In this document: positions 10,840 to 51,666 of the stretch, in pieces
Layout: each line of letters begins with the position of its first letter
Numbering within the stretch: position 1 is the first letter of the stretch
Assembly (NCBI RefSeq): GCF_013387455.1
Contig: NZ_VWNC01000003.1
Span: 124,001 to 188,000, forward strand
Length of the DNA stretch: 64,000 nucleotides
Direction: 5' to 3'
Source: Mariprofundus sp. NF
Lineage (GTDB): Bacteria; Pseudomonadota; Zetaproteobacteria; Mariprofundales; Mariprofundaceae
Translations under genes and position numbers: made by a program
Notes under the pieces: generated by a model
What the model was told of the DNA's origin: nothing
Databases searched by the model: none
What the model saw: the letters and a program-made list of their open reading frames with translations, nothing else

Positions 10840-11079
10840 TTATTCAGCTTTAGCAGCGATGTAGTCGATAGCGTTCTGTACGCTCTGGATGCCTTCAGCA
10901 TCTTCGTCTGGAATTTCAACACCGAACTCTTCTTCAAAAGCCATGACCAGCTCAACAGTATCCAGTGAATCTGCGCCCAGATCATCTACGAAAGATGAAT
11001 CAGGATTGATCTCTTCCTCATCAACATTGAGCTGATCGGAAACGATTTTAATGATTTTAGCTTCGATTTCTGCAGACAT
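10840..11079 (-). CDS. acpP: Acyl carrier protein
   Basis: 79 aa acidic carrier of acyl chains as 4'-phosphopantetheine thioesters. The attachment Ser is at residue 38 in [13 protein letters not shown]. Start at 11079 is fixed by GGAGGACTTT just upstream and by the family N-terminus (MSAEIEAKI); an upstream in-frame ATG is discarded. Its mRNA leader is unusually rich in hairpins (11101-11335). Confidence 0.97.
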
Positions 11080-11100
11080 AAAGTCCTCCCGAAAAAAATA

Positions 11101-11335
11101 GATGCGGCTTCTATCATAAGGTTCATAGCCGCACAAGTCTGAACCTTCACCTAGCTTCTGCTAATGCAGAAGATAGTGAAATTGTTACCAATTAGATAGC
11201 ACTCCATGTGCTCTCTAATTTACGCAAAAGCAAAAACGTGGTTTTGCCTTTGCTCACAATTTCAAGCAGTTCCCAGCTTGAAATTGGCAGCACATCCATG
11301 TGCTGCAGCAACCCCTCTGAAATTCATCAGAGACA
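11101..11335 (-). promoter_or_regulatory. Array of about seven hairpins between fabG and acpP
   Basis: On either strand the sequence folds into successive stem-loops: CTCTGA/TCAGAG (11315-11332); GCAGCACA/TGTGCTGC (11287-11306); CAATTTCAAGC/GCTTGAAATTG, perfect 11 bp (11257-11286); GCAAA.GCAAAA/TTTTGC.TTTGC (11224-11253); AATTAGA.AGCAC/GTGCT.TCTAATT (11190-11220); TTCAC...CTTCTGC/GCAGAAG...GTGAA (11146-11180); and TGCGGCT/AGCCGCA (11103-11133). The last conflicts with an alternative AAGGTTCA/TGAACCTT pairing (11118-11147). No coding frame is evident. It would form the acpP 5' leader or the fabG-acpP intercistronic RNA. Function unknown. Confidence 0.8.
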
Positions 11336-11341
11336 TTACTA

Positions 11342-12082
11342 TTACATATACATGCCACCATTTACATGCAGCACCTGACCGGTGATATAACCGGCGGCAT
11401 CGCTGGCCAAAAATGTTACTGCAGCAGCGATATCTTCAGGCTGGCCAAGGCGACCGAGTGGGATCTGGCCAGTCAGTTTTGCATGCGCATCTTCACCCAG
11501 ATCGGCAGTCATGTCAGTAGCAATAAAACCCGGTGCCACAGCATTAATAGTAATGCCGCGCGAGCCCACTTCACGCGCCAGTGAACGGGTCATCGCTTCC
11601 ACGCCGCCTTTGCTGGCGCAGTAGTTGAGCTGTCCGGGATTACCCATACCAGCCACAACTGATGAGATATTAATAATACGACCACCACGCGCACGCATCA
11701 TCGGCTTAAGCGCCGCCTGCATGGCATGAAATACAGAGGAGAGATTGGTATCGATCACCGCACTCCACTCATCCGGCTTCATACGCATCGAGAGATTGTC
11801 GCGGGTGATGCCGGCATTATTGACCAGCACATCGAGACGGCCGAAATGTTTGGCGGCCTCCTGAACAAAACTCTGCATCTGATCGCGATCGGAAACATCT
11901 ACAGCCCTGGCCAGAACTTCTACGCCGTGCGCTTCTCGAATGGCTTCAGCTGCCTTATCAATTGTGCCCTGCGTTGTACCGCAAATAGCCAGATTGAAAC
12001 CTGCTGCTGCAAGCTGCCCCGCAACCACATTGCCAATACCACGGCTTGCGCCAGTTACCAGTGCTGTTTTTCTATCGCTCAT
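11342..12082 (-). CDS. fabG: 3-oxoacyl-ACP reductase
   Basis: NADPH-dependent SDR that reduces 3-oxoacyl-ACP in fatty acid elongation. About 246 aa with TGASRGIG cofactor loop near the N-terminus, NNAG, the Ser of ISSVV and the Y-x-x-x-K of NYCASKGG, and C-terminal GQVLHVNGGMYM. ATG at 12082 is chosen over an in-frame GTG four codons upstream because AGGGGA precedes it. It lies 8 nt after fabD. Confidence 0.96.
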   Translation of the reverse strand: MSDRKTALVTGASRGIGNVVAGQLAAAGFNLAICGTTQGTIDKAAEAIREAHGVEVLARAVDVSDRDQMQSFVQEAAKHFGRLDVLVNNAGITRDNLSMRMKPDEWSAVIDTNLSSVFHAMQAALKPMMRARGGRIINISSVVAGMGNPGQLNYCASKGGVEAMTRSLAREVGSRGITINAVAPGFIATDMTADLGEDAHAKLTGQIPLGRLGQPEDIAAAVTFLASDAAGYITGQVLHVNGGMYM

Positions 12083-12090
12083 GTTTCCCC

Positions 12091-13032
12091 TCACTCGCCT
12101 GCCATCAGATTGATACTGCTTTCAAGCTGATCCGGCGTAACACTCACCCCAACAATCATACCACGTTCGATGCGTTTGACGAGTCCGGAAAGAACCTTGC
12201 CCGGCCCCATCTCAACACCCCTGCTCACACCTGTTGCAGCAAGTTTCTGAATCGTTTCAGTCCAGCGTACCGGTGAGATCAACTGTGCGACCAGTGCCTC
12301 CCGGATCTTCTCCACATCCTGTTCAGTCGTAGCAGAAGCATTGCCCCATACCGGACAGTTCGGTGCACTGAATGTAATATCCTGAAGACGCAGTGCCATG
12401 GCATCAGCAGCTGGCTGCATCAGAGGCGTATGGGATGGTGCACTTACTGCCAGGGGCAGTGCGCGCTTGGCACCGGCCTCTTTGGCCGAGACCATTAGAC
12501 GATCCACGGCAGCGGCATGCCCTGCCACCACCAACTGCCCAGGACAGTTGTAGTTGGCAGCCCACACCTTGTCGCTATCATCGGAAGCGTTTACGCAAAG
12601 CTCTTCAAGTACATCATCAGCAAGGCCAAGAATAGCAGCCATGCTGCCAATACCTGCAGGCACAGCCTGAGTCATGACCTGCCCGCGGAATGCAACCAGC
12701 TGAACTGCATCAGAGAAATCGATCACACCAGCTGCAACCAGTGCTGAGTACTCACCGAGCGAGTGGCCTGCAACCTGAGTTGGCTCAGCACCACCCTTCT
12801 CGCGCCACAGACGCATTAAAGCGGTGGAAGCGGTTAAGAGAGCCGGCTGGGTAAACTCAGTCTGGCCAAGCTTATCCTCGGCATCATCACGAATCAGTGC
12901 AGCCATATCGTAACCCAGCGCATCAGATGCCTCTTCAAGGGTACGGGTTACTACATCAATGCCATCAAACGCATCGAGCATACCTTTGGATTGAGATCCC
13001 TGACCGGGAAAAAGAAGTACAAAATCACTCAC
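12091..13032 (-). CDS. fabD: Malonyl-CoA:ACP transacylase
   Basis: Loads malonyl onto ACP for fatty acid synthesis. 313 aa with the N-terminal FPGQGSQ loop, catalytic Ser in GHSLGEYSAL and catalytic His in SAPSHTPLM. GTG start at 13032 with AAGGA eight nt upstream. Separated from fabH by an inverted repeat element of about 100 nt rather than tight packing. Confidence 0.96.
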   Translation of the reverse strand: MSDFVLLFPGQGSQSKGMLDAFDGIDVVTRTLEEASDALGYDMAALIRDDAEDKLGQTEFTQPALLTASTALMRLWREKGGAEPTQVAGHSLGEYSALVAAGVIDFSDAVQLVAFRGQVMTQAVPAGIGSMAAILGLADDVLEELCVNASDDSDKVWAANYNCPGQLVVAGHAAAVDRLMVSAKEAGAKRALPLAVSAPSHTPLMQPAADAMALRLQDITFSAPNCPVWGNASATTEQDVEKIREALVAQLISPVRWTETIQKLAATGVSRGVEMGPGKVLSGLVKRIERGMIVGVSVTPDQLESSINLMAGE

Positions 13033-13049
13033 GGTATTATTCCTTATTT

Positions 13050-13153
13050 AAACCACGAAGTTCACGAAGCTCACGAAGAAACAGAAATAATGGAAACAGA
13101 GTCAAACAACTCTACATTATTGATCTTCGTGGCCTTCGTGTTCTTCGTGGTGA
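13050..13153. repeat. Inverted intergenic element made of ACGAAG units (full copy)
   Basis: The left arm (13051-13080) is CCACGAAGTTCACGAAG then CTCACGAAGAA. The right arm (13124-13153) is the reverse complement type CTTCGTGGCCTTCGTG then TTCTTCGTGGTGAA. The arms pair over about 30 nt and enclose about 43 nt. It lies between fabH and fabD within the fab transcript. Related copies occur at 34.64 and 55.81 kb, and half copies at 0.58 and 5.86 kb. Confidence 0.85.
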
Positions 13154-13164
13154 ACATAATAATT

Positions 13165-14184
13165 TTATTTTGACCAGCGGAGCAGATTAGCGCCCCAGGC
13201 AAATCCGCCTGCAAATGCCTCAAGTAGAATCAACTGCCCCTTTTCAAGACGTCCTGAGGTATAGAGATCATTCAACGCCATAGGCACACTGGCCGATGAT
13301 GTGTTGCCGTGTTTCTCAACAGTGAGCGCCACACGATCCAGATCCATCTTCAACTTCTTCGCTGTCGCCTGAATAATGCGAATATTGGCCTGATGCGGAA
13401 CCAGCCAGTCGATATCGGAATCCTGCAACTCATACTTGGCCAGGATCTCATTGACCACACCGCCAAGCTTGGAGACCGCCACGCGGAATACTTCGTTGCC
13501 TTTCATCTCAACGGCGGCAGCACCGGCTGAATCAATACGGAAGTCGACAGGCTCATGATGCATTTCAGGTGTCATCGGAGCATGCGGGTGATGCGCTTTC
13601 AAGAGATCGCGGTAGGCACCATCGGCATGCAGTACTGAACCTATCAAACCATTGGCATCATCGGCTGCACCCGCTTCAAGGATAACCGCACCGGCACCAT
13701 CACCAAACAGCACGCAGGTATTACGATCCGTCCAGTCGACAATACGACTCATTGATTCGGCACCAATAAGCAGTACACGCTTGAACATACCGCCGCGCAT
13801 CATGCCTTCGGCCTGGGCCAACCCGTAAACAAAACCTGAACAGACCGCCTGAATATCCCAGGCCGGGAAATCCTTGCCGCCCAGCTTGGACTGCACCACG
13901 GTAGCAGTAGATGGAAAAATCATATCGGGTGTGGTGGTGGCTACAATCAGTGCATCAATATCATCAATAGTGATACCGGCATCAGCCAGAGCAACCTTGG
14001 CCGCCTCTACAGCAAGATCTGATGTCATCTGATCGGCTGCAATAATATGACGCTGACGAATGCCTGTACGATCGGCGATCCACTCATCCGTGGTATCTAC
14101 CAGTTTCTCAAGATCGGCATTGGTCATGATGCGTTCAGGCAGATAACCACCGATTCCTGTAATATGAACAGAAGGGTAACTCAT
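13165..14184 (-). CDS. fabH: 3-oxoacyl-ACP synthase III
   Basis: Starts fatty acid synthesis by condensing acyl-CoA with malonyl-ACP. 339 aa; catalytic Cys in QAVCSGFVYG, His in WLVPHQANIRI, Asn in KHGNTSSASVP; C-terminal GGFAWGANLLRW. The start ATG overlaps the plsX stop as ATGA (14181-14184), implying coupling. Confidence 0.97.
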   Translation of the reverse strand: MSYPSVHITGIGGYLPERIMTNADLEKLVDTTDEWIADRTGIRQRHIIAADQMTSDLAVEAAKVALADAGITIDDIDALIVATTTPDMIFPSTATVVQSKLGGKDFPAWDIQAVCSGFVYGLAQAEGMMRGGMFKRVLLIGAESMSRIVDWTDRNTCVLFGDGAGAVILEAGAADDANGLIGSVLHADGAYRDLLKAHHPHAPMTPEMHHEPVDFRIDSAGAAAVEMKGNEVFRVAVSKLGGVVNEILAKYELQDSDIDWLVPHQANIRIIQATAKKLKMDLDRVALTVEKHGNTSSASVPMALNDLYTSGRLEKGQLILLEAFAGGFAWGANLLRWSK

Positions 14185-49956: not shown

Positions 49957-51264
49957 CTACTCCGTTTTCAACTTCTGCAGTGGCAGGCGAATATTAACAA
50001 GTGCCCCACCCTCTGCGTGATTGCTGATATTCATCTCACCGCCAATACGGCGCACCACCTCACTGGCCAGGTAGAAACCGAGGCCGTGGCCATCCTTCTT
50101 GGTGGTAAAAAACGGTTTACCCAGCGCTTCCAGCGCAGCAGGACTTAAACCGTCACCAAAATCGCGAATATCAAGATTCAGTTCAACAGCAGACCACTCT
50201 GCATTCAACTCAATGCTATTCGGAGAGGCATCAGCAGCATTATTCAGCACATTGATCACGGCCTGATTCAGGGTTTCATCAACAACAATGGTTGGAGCCG
50301 GTTCAAGTCCTTTCAGGGAGATCGCTATTGATGTTGCCGGATGCAGCTCCTGCCAGCGTGCTATGCAGTGGTTCAGGCAGCTCTTCACATCTTCGCTATG
50401 GCCACTCTCAGCCTTCATCTGTCCGGCACTGGCACTGATCTGCCCAAGTGTCGCCTTACAGCGATCCACCTGCGAACGCAGAATAACAATGTTTTCCAAC
50501 AGTTCGGGTTGCTGCCGATACTCCTTTTCCATCTCTTTGGTCAGTACAGCCATCGTCGCCAGCGGTGTACCCAGCTCATGGGCGGCACCGGCAGCAAGTG
50601 TGCCGAGAGAGACCATATGCTCATCACGCAGATTTTTCTCACGTGCTTCGGCCAGTTTCTGATCACGCTGGCGCAAAGCTTCAGCCATGGAGACGACGAA
50701 AAATAGAATCAGACCCACGGCAAGCAGAAAACTGAACCACATACCCAGCACATGCAGACTGAAATCACCTGCAGGGGCAGCACCATGGCCGGCATGAGCA
50801 CCGTGATTATGGCCTGTCATCTCCTGCGTCAGCGGCACATTGATCAACATCAATAGCGAGTAGCAACCCAGCGTCACCGCCGCCATGCCCCAGACATAAC
50901 GCTTGGGCAGTGTTGCCGCCACAATCACCAGCGGCAGTAGAAACAGCGAAACAAACGGATTACTGGAGCCACCGGCAAAATAGAGCAGTGCGGCCAGTGC
51001 CAGCACATCCACAACCAGATGTAGGAAAAATTCATTGGCACTGGCCGATGGGCTTTTGCGCAGCCGCAACCAGACGTAAGCGTTAAACAGCGTATAGAGA
51101 GCAATCACTGAAAGCATATAGTGAAGAGGCAACACGACAGAGAGCCCGTAAACAGCCAGACCAACAGCCGCCAGCTCACTTGCGATCACTGCAGTTCTGA
51201 ACACAAACAACCGTTTCAGGTTATAAGTACCCACCATCTCCTCAATGGAGCCTTGAATAAACAT
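49957..51264 (-). CDS. regB: Redox sensor histidine kinase RegB/PrrB/ActS
   Basis: About 435 aa. Six hydrophobic helices (about 18-195) with the quinone-linked motif GGSSNPF (98-104); H-box AAGAAHELGTPLATMAV with phospho-His229; Cys269, exactly 40 residues later (VDRCKATLGQ), equals the redox Cys265 after His225 in Rhodobacter; C-terminal ATPase (NNAADASP, GDGLSPAALEALGKPFFTTK). A His-rich loop HNHGAHAGHG (152-161) between helices is unusual. ATG 51264 is chosen (AGAGG upstream). Confidence 0.93.
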   Translation of the reverse strand: MFIQGSIEEMVGTYNLKRLFVFRTAVIASELAAVGLAVYGLSVVLPLHYMLSVIALYTLFNAYVWLRLRKSPSASANEFFLHLVVDVLALAALLYFAGGSSNPFVSLFLLPLVIVAATLPKRYVWGMAAVTLGCYSLLMLINVPLTQEMTGHNHGAHAGHGAAPAGDFSLHVLGMWFSFLLAVGLILFFVVSMAEALRQRDQKLAEAREKNLRDEHMVSLGTLAAGAAHELGTPLATMAVLTKEMEKEYRQQPELLENIVILRSQVDRCKATLGQISASAGQMKAESGHSEDVKSCLNHCIARWQELHPATSIAISLKGLEPAPTIVVDETLNQAVINVLNNAADASPNSIELNAEWSAVELNLDIRDFGDGLSPAALEALGKPFFTTKKDGHGLGFYLASEVVRRIGGEMNISNHAEGGALVNIRLPLQKLKTE

Positions 51265-51380
51265 CGTTGCCTCTTCGATTCGCATGAGAACTTAAGCTAC
51301 GGTCTGGCTAGCGATCAAACAAGCCGCGTCTCTGCGCCATTTCTGATCGCGAAAGTTATATGATTTGTAAACCGTCGGAG

Positions 51381-51472: not shown

Positions 51473-51666
51473 ACCAGCCACGAATACACACTGATTTTCA
51501 CGAATTACAAGATGCTCATTAATTCACTTTCCTCGCTAATACGAGATGTGAAAAACATCCACCATTAGGTGGATACTTCTATGGCAGAGAGAGTGCCTTG
51601 AGGCAATAATGCAAATATTCACTGACTATTATTCGTGTTGATTCGTGTGTATTCGTGGTTGGCTTA
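51473..51666. repeat. Long inverted element of ACGAAT units with internal hairpins
   Basis: Left arm (51473-51509) CCAGCCACGAATACACACTG then ATTTTCACGAATTA; right arm (51629-51664) ATTCGTGTTGATTCGTGTGT then ATTCGTGGTTGGCT. Inside lie ATCCACC-ATTA-GGTGGAT (51557-51574), GATGT-GAAAA-ACATC (51545-51559) and TGCCTTGAGGCA. It differs from the ACGAAG elements by unit (ACGAAT) and length. It fills the space between the dapB end and the regB promoter; I see no gene here. Confidence 0.75.

Follow-up and report, generated by a model that had tools for sequence, protein, structure and literature searches.

The 64,000-nt stretch of DNA analyzed here (the window) comes from a zetaproteobacterium of the Mariprofundus type, an iron-oxidizer-type bacterium, and carries acpP (10840–11079) and fabG (11342–12094), both on the minus strand. 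The two genes are separated by a gap of 262 bases (11080–11341) that is likewise transcribed from the minus strand, with the acpP ribosome site, GGGAGGAC, at 11083–11090 (minus). An earlier note on this DNA had read the plus strand; with fabG and acpP on the minus strand, the gap transcript is the reverse complement of the sequence it considered. Its central observation, a run of about seven hairpins between the two genes, is real: seven hairpins fit on the coding minus strand, among them the perfect 11-bp and 8-bp stems that it had singled out (H3 and H2 below). The 235-nt stretch quoted there, folded as the plus strand, has a minimum free energy of −89.3 kcal/mol (z = −9.2 versus dinucleotide shuffles) and ranks first of 426 segments of 235 nt on both strands once GC content is regressed out, and the complete gap, folded as the minus strand, reaches −101.3 kcal/mol (z = −7.1 versus dinucleotide shuffles). 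A search of the window against Rfam returned zero matches.

The hairpins of the gap form two unrelated parts, a copy of a dispersed element (H1 to H5) and an ancestral part of about 105 nt next to acpP. All on the minus strand, the element copy comprises H1 (11307–11340), whose 5′ arm is the left terminal inverted repeat in the family; H2 (11287–11306), with the perfect 8-bp stem and a loop, ACAUGGAUGU, that contains A-N-GGA; H3 (11257–11286), with the perfect 11-bp stem; H4 (11224–11253), with the conserved family core GCAAAACCACG[C/T]TTTTGC; and H5 (11190–11220), whose loop, ACAUGGAGUG, again contains A-N-GGA. The motif CCATGTG, described previously as shared by two loops, is present but was given in the wrong sense, the RNA reading CACATGG, an A-N-GGA loop.

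Evidence that H1 to H5 belong to a repeat family came from a BLAST search of the gap against its own genome, which returned ten further dispersed matches (73–95% identity, E < 1e-4) that fall within gap positions 30–139 and have the H1–H5 order in common; H4 is the part closest to the other copies in sequence. A covariance model, R1, was built from ten aligned copies, an alignment in which 25 of the 51 predicted pairs already had two-sided changes. The copy at acpP matches R1 at 11189–11339 (minus; 120.6 bits, E = 4e-40), and the element as a whole spans 11187–11341, with approximate ends. R1 has 41 matches in the same genome, where at least 25 sense copies remain after opposite-strand matches of the palindromic stems are dropped, and 0 to at least 75 matches per genome in 40 others; at least one match was found in 29 of the 41 genomes, own genome included. 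Mariprofundus erugo P3, Mariprofundus sp. KV, and other Mariprofundaceae carry the repeat, and across 299 Pseudomonadota genomes R1 copies occur in 47, mostly Mariprofundaceae but also several distant families (70 matches in genome G142, 38 in G102, 16 in G057, and 7 in G140, counts that include some opposite-strand echoes). The distant copies retain all five hairpins with quite different sequence. Members of the family are approximately 150 to 160 bp long, occur as many dispersed copies, and have no coding capacity. Plasmids, phages, and IMG/VR yielded no match to the element, and an Rfam search of 15 element loci with E values up to 1 returned nothing except a tRNA. We found no published description of the family in the literature that can be searched without subscription, a weak negative.

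Two arrangements within the family deserve mention. In M. erugo (locus L277, genome G001, 495–1025), three copies lie head to tail, separated by about 12 nt, an arrangement such as would arise if copies inserted into the YTAR at the end of another copy. One copy, L039/L096 (G000 C2 391103–391321), has an insert of about 70 nt with a hairpin of its own (CAATCCGGCAGGAGAGCCGGATTG) between H2 and H3; the same type of insert is present in copies L134, L074, and L128 of other species, which marks it as a sub-module.

The fold of the dispersed copies is strongly supported by covariation. Across 105 distinct matches, standard pairs fill 93.9% of cells compared with 71.8% in shuffled controls and fall to 34–46% when the partner is slid; changes on both sides are seen in 50 of 51 base pairs, and the covariation score is 0.517 versus 0.149. 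The alignment had been fitted to the model, and a dozen of its matches are weak ones from the opposite strand; neither point can explain margins as large as these. The structure covaries strongly, across scattered copies of the element rather than across the fabG-acpP gaps in which the earlier note had proposed to seek covariation. On the sense strand, G-U pairs outnumber A-C mismatches 182 to 71, and 36 to 7 in a set dominated by other lineages, an excess that favors a single-stranded form in the sense direction, with the proviso that the model itself favors G-U. In 29 independent nearest-copy pairs, single changes broke a pair 97 times and kept it 60 times, so single copies seem to erode once they have landed; the same comparisons contain 56 pairing-keeping double changes, whereas chance would give about 15 double changes in total, pairing or not. 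The most economical interpretation is a fold that is maintained in the propagating lineage and decays in copies after insertion. A transposon needs only its ends, and mobility alone therefore does not account for the conserved interior, a point that weighs against the MITE explanation given below.

Several features point to mobility of the element. Copies are intergenic, with only 3 of 95 inside an open reading frame, and many start exactly at a TAA stop codon. They are unoriented: where both neighboring genes lie within 300 nt, both are antisense in 24 cases, both are sense in 15, and the two mixed arrangements number 14 and 11. A cis function of the element in mRNA was rejected on this absence of orientation bias. 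The family has terminal inverted repeats (TAAGGATNCTCTGAA and, inverted, TCAGAGNTTCCTTA), and 34 of 77 copies are flanked by a 4-bp direct duplication, placed at a constant offset from each end, compared with 8.0 expected from mismatched flanks. The duplication has the form YTAR (TTAA, CTAA, TTAG, or CTAG), which is the target duplication of IS5 (PMC10359306). In G015, a close relative and sister species, only 1 of 15 copies has a counterpart in the orthologous place among the G000 copies, and that single pair is 88.6% identical over 2 kb. The gammaproteobacterial genome G140 carries IS5-family transposase genes (NF033581, 274.5 bits against a cutoff of 140) whose ends are YTAR followed by CAGGCTGTTGAAAT, the first 14 bases of that genome's own element copies; with up to 1 mismatch, this 14-mer was found elsewhere only once in 0.95 Mb of sequence. 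One G140 insertion sequence copy, L211, has TTAA and CTAG as flanks and no perfect duplication. A search of the Mariprofundus genomes found no transposase with matching ends, and mobilization there is accordingly inferred; the copy-rich genomes G001 and G142 have no DUF772 transposase. The sole DDE_Tnp_1 transposase of the genome that contains the window is of the IS1182 type and was rejected as a mobilizer because its ends do not match those of the element.

Taken together, we consider it very probable that the fabG-side portion of approximately 155 bp is a copy of an IS5-type miniature transposable element (MITE), with actual movement read from sequence. According to the proposed mechanism, an IS5-family DDE transposase would recognize the terminal inverted repeats and move the element in trans, presumably in Mariprofundus as well, with insertion at YTAR and often at a TAA stop codon. 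The stems of the five-hairpin body change with compensation, but the overall architecture is constant and so are the loop motifs of H2, H4, and H5; the fold would act as a constraint on the propagating lineage, probably on the element's own propagation, with landed single copies tending to decay. One such copy would have inserted behind fabG, beside the ancestral acpP leader of about 105 nt, which was left whole, with a presumably near-neutral effect on acpP.

Comparison of acpP loci in relatives bears directly on this insertion. Among 30 genomes, the element is at acpP in only two, the genome studied here (120.6 bits) and G007 (65.2 bits); the other 28 acpP loci are without H1 to H5. In relatives L002, L003, L005 to L007, L009, and L010, the gap measures 105–109 nt from the fabG stop codon and aligns with the acpP-side remainder of the gap in the window. 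The fabG stop codon is the likely site of the insertion join, and GTAA flanks the element on either side. The terminal repeats and target duplication of this copy are worn, GTAA on both sides being the best that can be discerned, and we make no firm claim of a target duplication here because the ends have deteriorated too far. The H2 core CACATGGATGTG is common to this copy and the G007 copy and is otherwise found only in a weak copy, L115, and the insertion may thus be an old one common to both genomes; the other stems of the G007 element differ.

Next to the element copy is an ancestral acpP leader, real but simpler in design, made up of a hairpin, a covarying stem, and a conserved block. 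The hairpin behind fabG, HA (11146–11180, minus), has kept its position while its sequence has changed in most relatives; over 25 loci, the hairpin at this position has a median z of −2.4, with 60% of values below −1.64. Within the genus, 5 of the 6 pairs between the arms of stem HB (11118–11147, minus), formed by AAGGTTCA and TGAACCTT, show covariation, and an alternative stem can be drawn at 11103–11133. The acpP-proximal block CTTGTG-N13-TATGATAGAAGCCGCA (11103–11137, minus) has fixed spacing in 28 relatives, with its CTTG columns conserved in 27 to 28 of 28 and AGAAG in 28 of 28, and occurs once in the window. A sigma-70 promoter scan of the block gave no match; TATGAT is present in it, with the conserved CTTG only 13–15 nt upstream. 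The block is possibly a promoter with unusual spacing or an RNA element, a short pseudoknot or a promoter may be contained in the ancestral part, and HA, HB, or the block may affect acpP expression.

The distribution of GGA among the loops of the element is uneven. In 95 copies, GGA is in the apical loop of H2 in 82 and of H5 in 72, compared with 3, 10, and 0 for H1, H3, and H4. A second set of 28, in which other lineages dominate, gave the same picture (25 for H2, 22 for H5, and 0, 9, and 1 for H1, H3, and H4). A-N-GGA in a hairpin loop is the signature of CsrA/RsmA binding; the H2 loop of the acpP copy, ACAUGGAUGU, fits the CsrA consensus, and two csrA genes are present. A typical H2 core, GCCATGGATGGC, greatly outnumbers its reversed control in many other Pseudomonadota genomes (93 versus 0 in G048). 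In G048, G152, G285, G198, G184, and G117 it is 30- to 90-fold above that control; these genomes have few or no R1 matches and may contain other GGA-hairpin arrays.

Two other accounts of the hairpin run concern its role at acpP and its mobilizer. The earlier note had suggested an RNA control element, and such an element, conserved at acpP and adjusting the high expression level of acyl carrier protein through a two-state switch before the ribosome site, would fit the strong folding, the covariation of HB, and the high conservation of the acpP-proximal block. What holds of that suggestion is the non-chance, strongly covarying structure. Conservation at the same gene in relatives, as expected of a riboswitch or attenuator, was seen for H1 to H5 in only 2 of 30 genomes, and the same five hairpins lie at dozens of unrelated sites and have no Rfam match; with about 155 of its 262 bases belonging to a transposable-element copy that has no counterpart at 28 of 30 loci, the gap cannot as a whole be a conserved acpP control element. 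Both stems of the proposed switch can be drawn in the sequence itself, but among 14 relatives the central pairs of the competitor, TGCGGCT/AGCCGCA, are disrupted in 6 and 8, and its outer pairs occupy near-invariant columns that are uninformative either way. With HB conserved but its competitor not, the switch is unsupported, and the control-element account is highly improbable. Less probable still is mobilization of a REP-like element by a Y1 (RAYT) transposase: clustered intergenic hairpins do look like BIMEs, and Y1 genes are present in 18 of 20 genomes tested, but they are also present in element-free genomes, Y1 transposition is not expected to leave a target duplication, and the element lies within about 1.5 kb of 0 of 30 Y1 loci, an absence of association on which Y1/RAYT was disfavored as the mobilizer.

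Two further alternatives address what maintains the fold. Compensated double changes might arise by templated rewriting of imperfect palindromes during replication, with the hairpins as a by-product and no selection on the fold. The near-perfect palindromes of the stems, the surplus of pairing-keeping doubles, and the many single breaking changes are all in keeping with such a process, which does not by itself lead one to expect a hairpin number, order, and size that are constant across classes, or a GGA that is kept in two specific loops while the stems change. As a full explanation it is unlikely, and we regard it as a rival for part of the double-change excess. The other alternative, which can be combined with the IS5-type MITE explanation, is that a functional RNA travels with the transposable element: the A-N-GGA loops of H2 and H5 would bind CsrA/RsmA, and copies located in transcribed regions would serve as CsrA-binding modules or sponges. 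The confinement of GGA mainly to these two loops in both copy sets, the H2 loop of the acpP copy together with the two csrA genes, the excess of G-U over A-C on the sense strand, and the enrichment of GCCATGGATGGC are consistent with it. Against it stand the lack of orientation bias relative to neighboring genes, a consensus scan that found no promoter-like site in the gap and no sense-strand terminator-like site at the acpP copy, and a search of the openly accessible literature (a weak negative) that found no publication linking MITEs and CsrA. This GGA pattern is a lead, not a demonstration, and we hold the carrier reading to be unlikely. With the same reserve, an IS5-mobilized MITE with a candidate pair of CsrA-type loops might seed sites for CsrA or another GGA binder across proteobacterial classes; if so, the acpP copy would put the fabG-acpP mRNA under such a regulator.

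The IS5-type MITE favored here resembles known systems in part. Like IS5-related MITEs, the element is short, non-coding, multicopy, and intergenic, with terminal inverted repeats and a YTAR duplication (reviewed in PMC10969869), and in one genome (G140) it shares its ends with an IS5-family transposase. It differs from them in that its interior consists entirely of five ordered, covarying hairpins whose loop motifs are fixed and which are conserved from one proteobacterial class to another. Correia and ERIC elements are mainly one long hairpin of terminal repeats, whereas this element has five successive local hairpins. As with Correia and ERIC elements, for which RNase effects have been described (PMC10969869), the element is mobile and intergenic, and its transcripts fold, with possible effects on mRNA processing. 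CsrB/RsmZ-type small RNAs likewise have hairpins in succession with A-N-GGA loops, but GGA is in only two of the five loops of the element, which is dispersed and unoriented and has no promoter-like site (in this copy) or Rfam match. REP/BIME sequences with RAYT are also many-copy clusters of intergenic palindromes, but the element shows target duplication and no link to a Y1 transposase.

The earlier observation was accurate and its reading partly wrong: the run is mostly a copy of a structured MITE from a family for which we found no description. The case shows that even a conspicuous series of hairpins ahead of an essential gene can have arrived by insertion, and that covariation among dispersed copies gives no evidence for a switch at any one locus. 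Whereas bacterial MITEs are generally regarded as the decaying ends of insertion sequences, the whole body of this family covaries strongly and has been kept across proteobacterial classes with almost every stem sequence changed, and one short motif is held in two of the loops. This raises the question of why a parasite that should need only its ends maintains so elaborate a fold inside them.

Other inverted repeats were seen in the window. In the fabD-fabH gap (13040–13170), CACGAAG units are arranged as a long inverted repeat (z = −7.6 for the RNA); its sequence bears no relation to that of the acpP element, and it is probably another dispersed palindrome. At 51474–51660, upstream of the gene at 49957–51285 and downstream of a dapB-like gene, CACGAAT-type units (CCACGAATACACACTGATT ... 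ATTCGTGTGTATTCGTGG) form another large inverted repeat (z = −5.2), which resembles the repeat at 13040–13170 in style.
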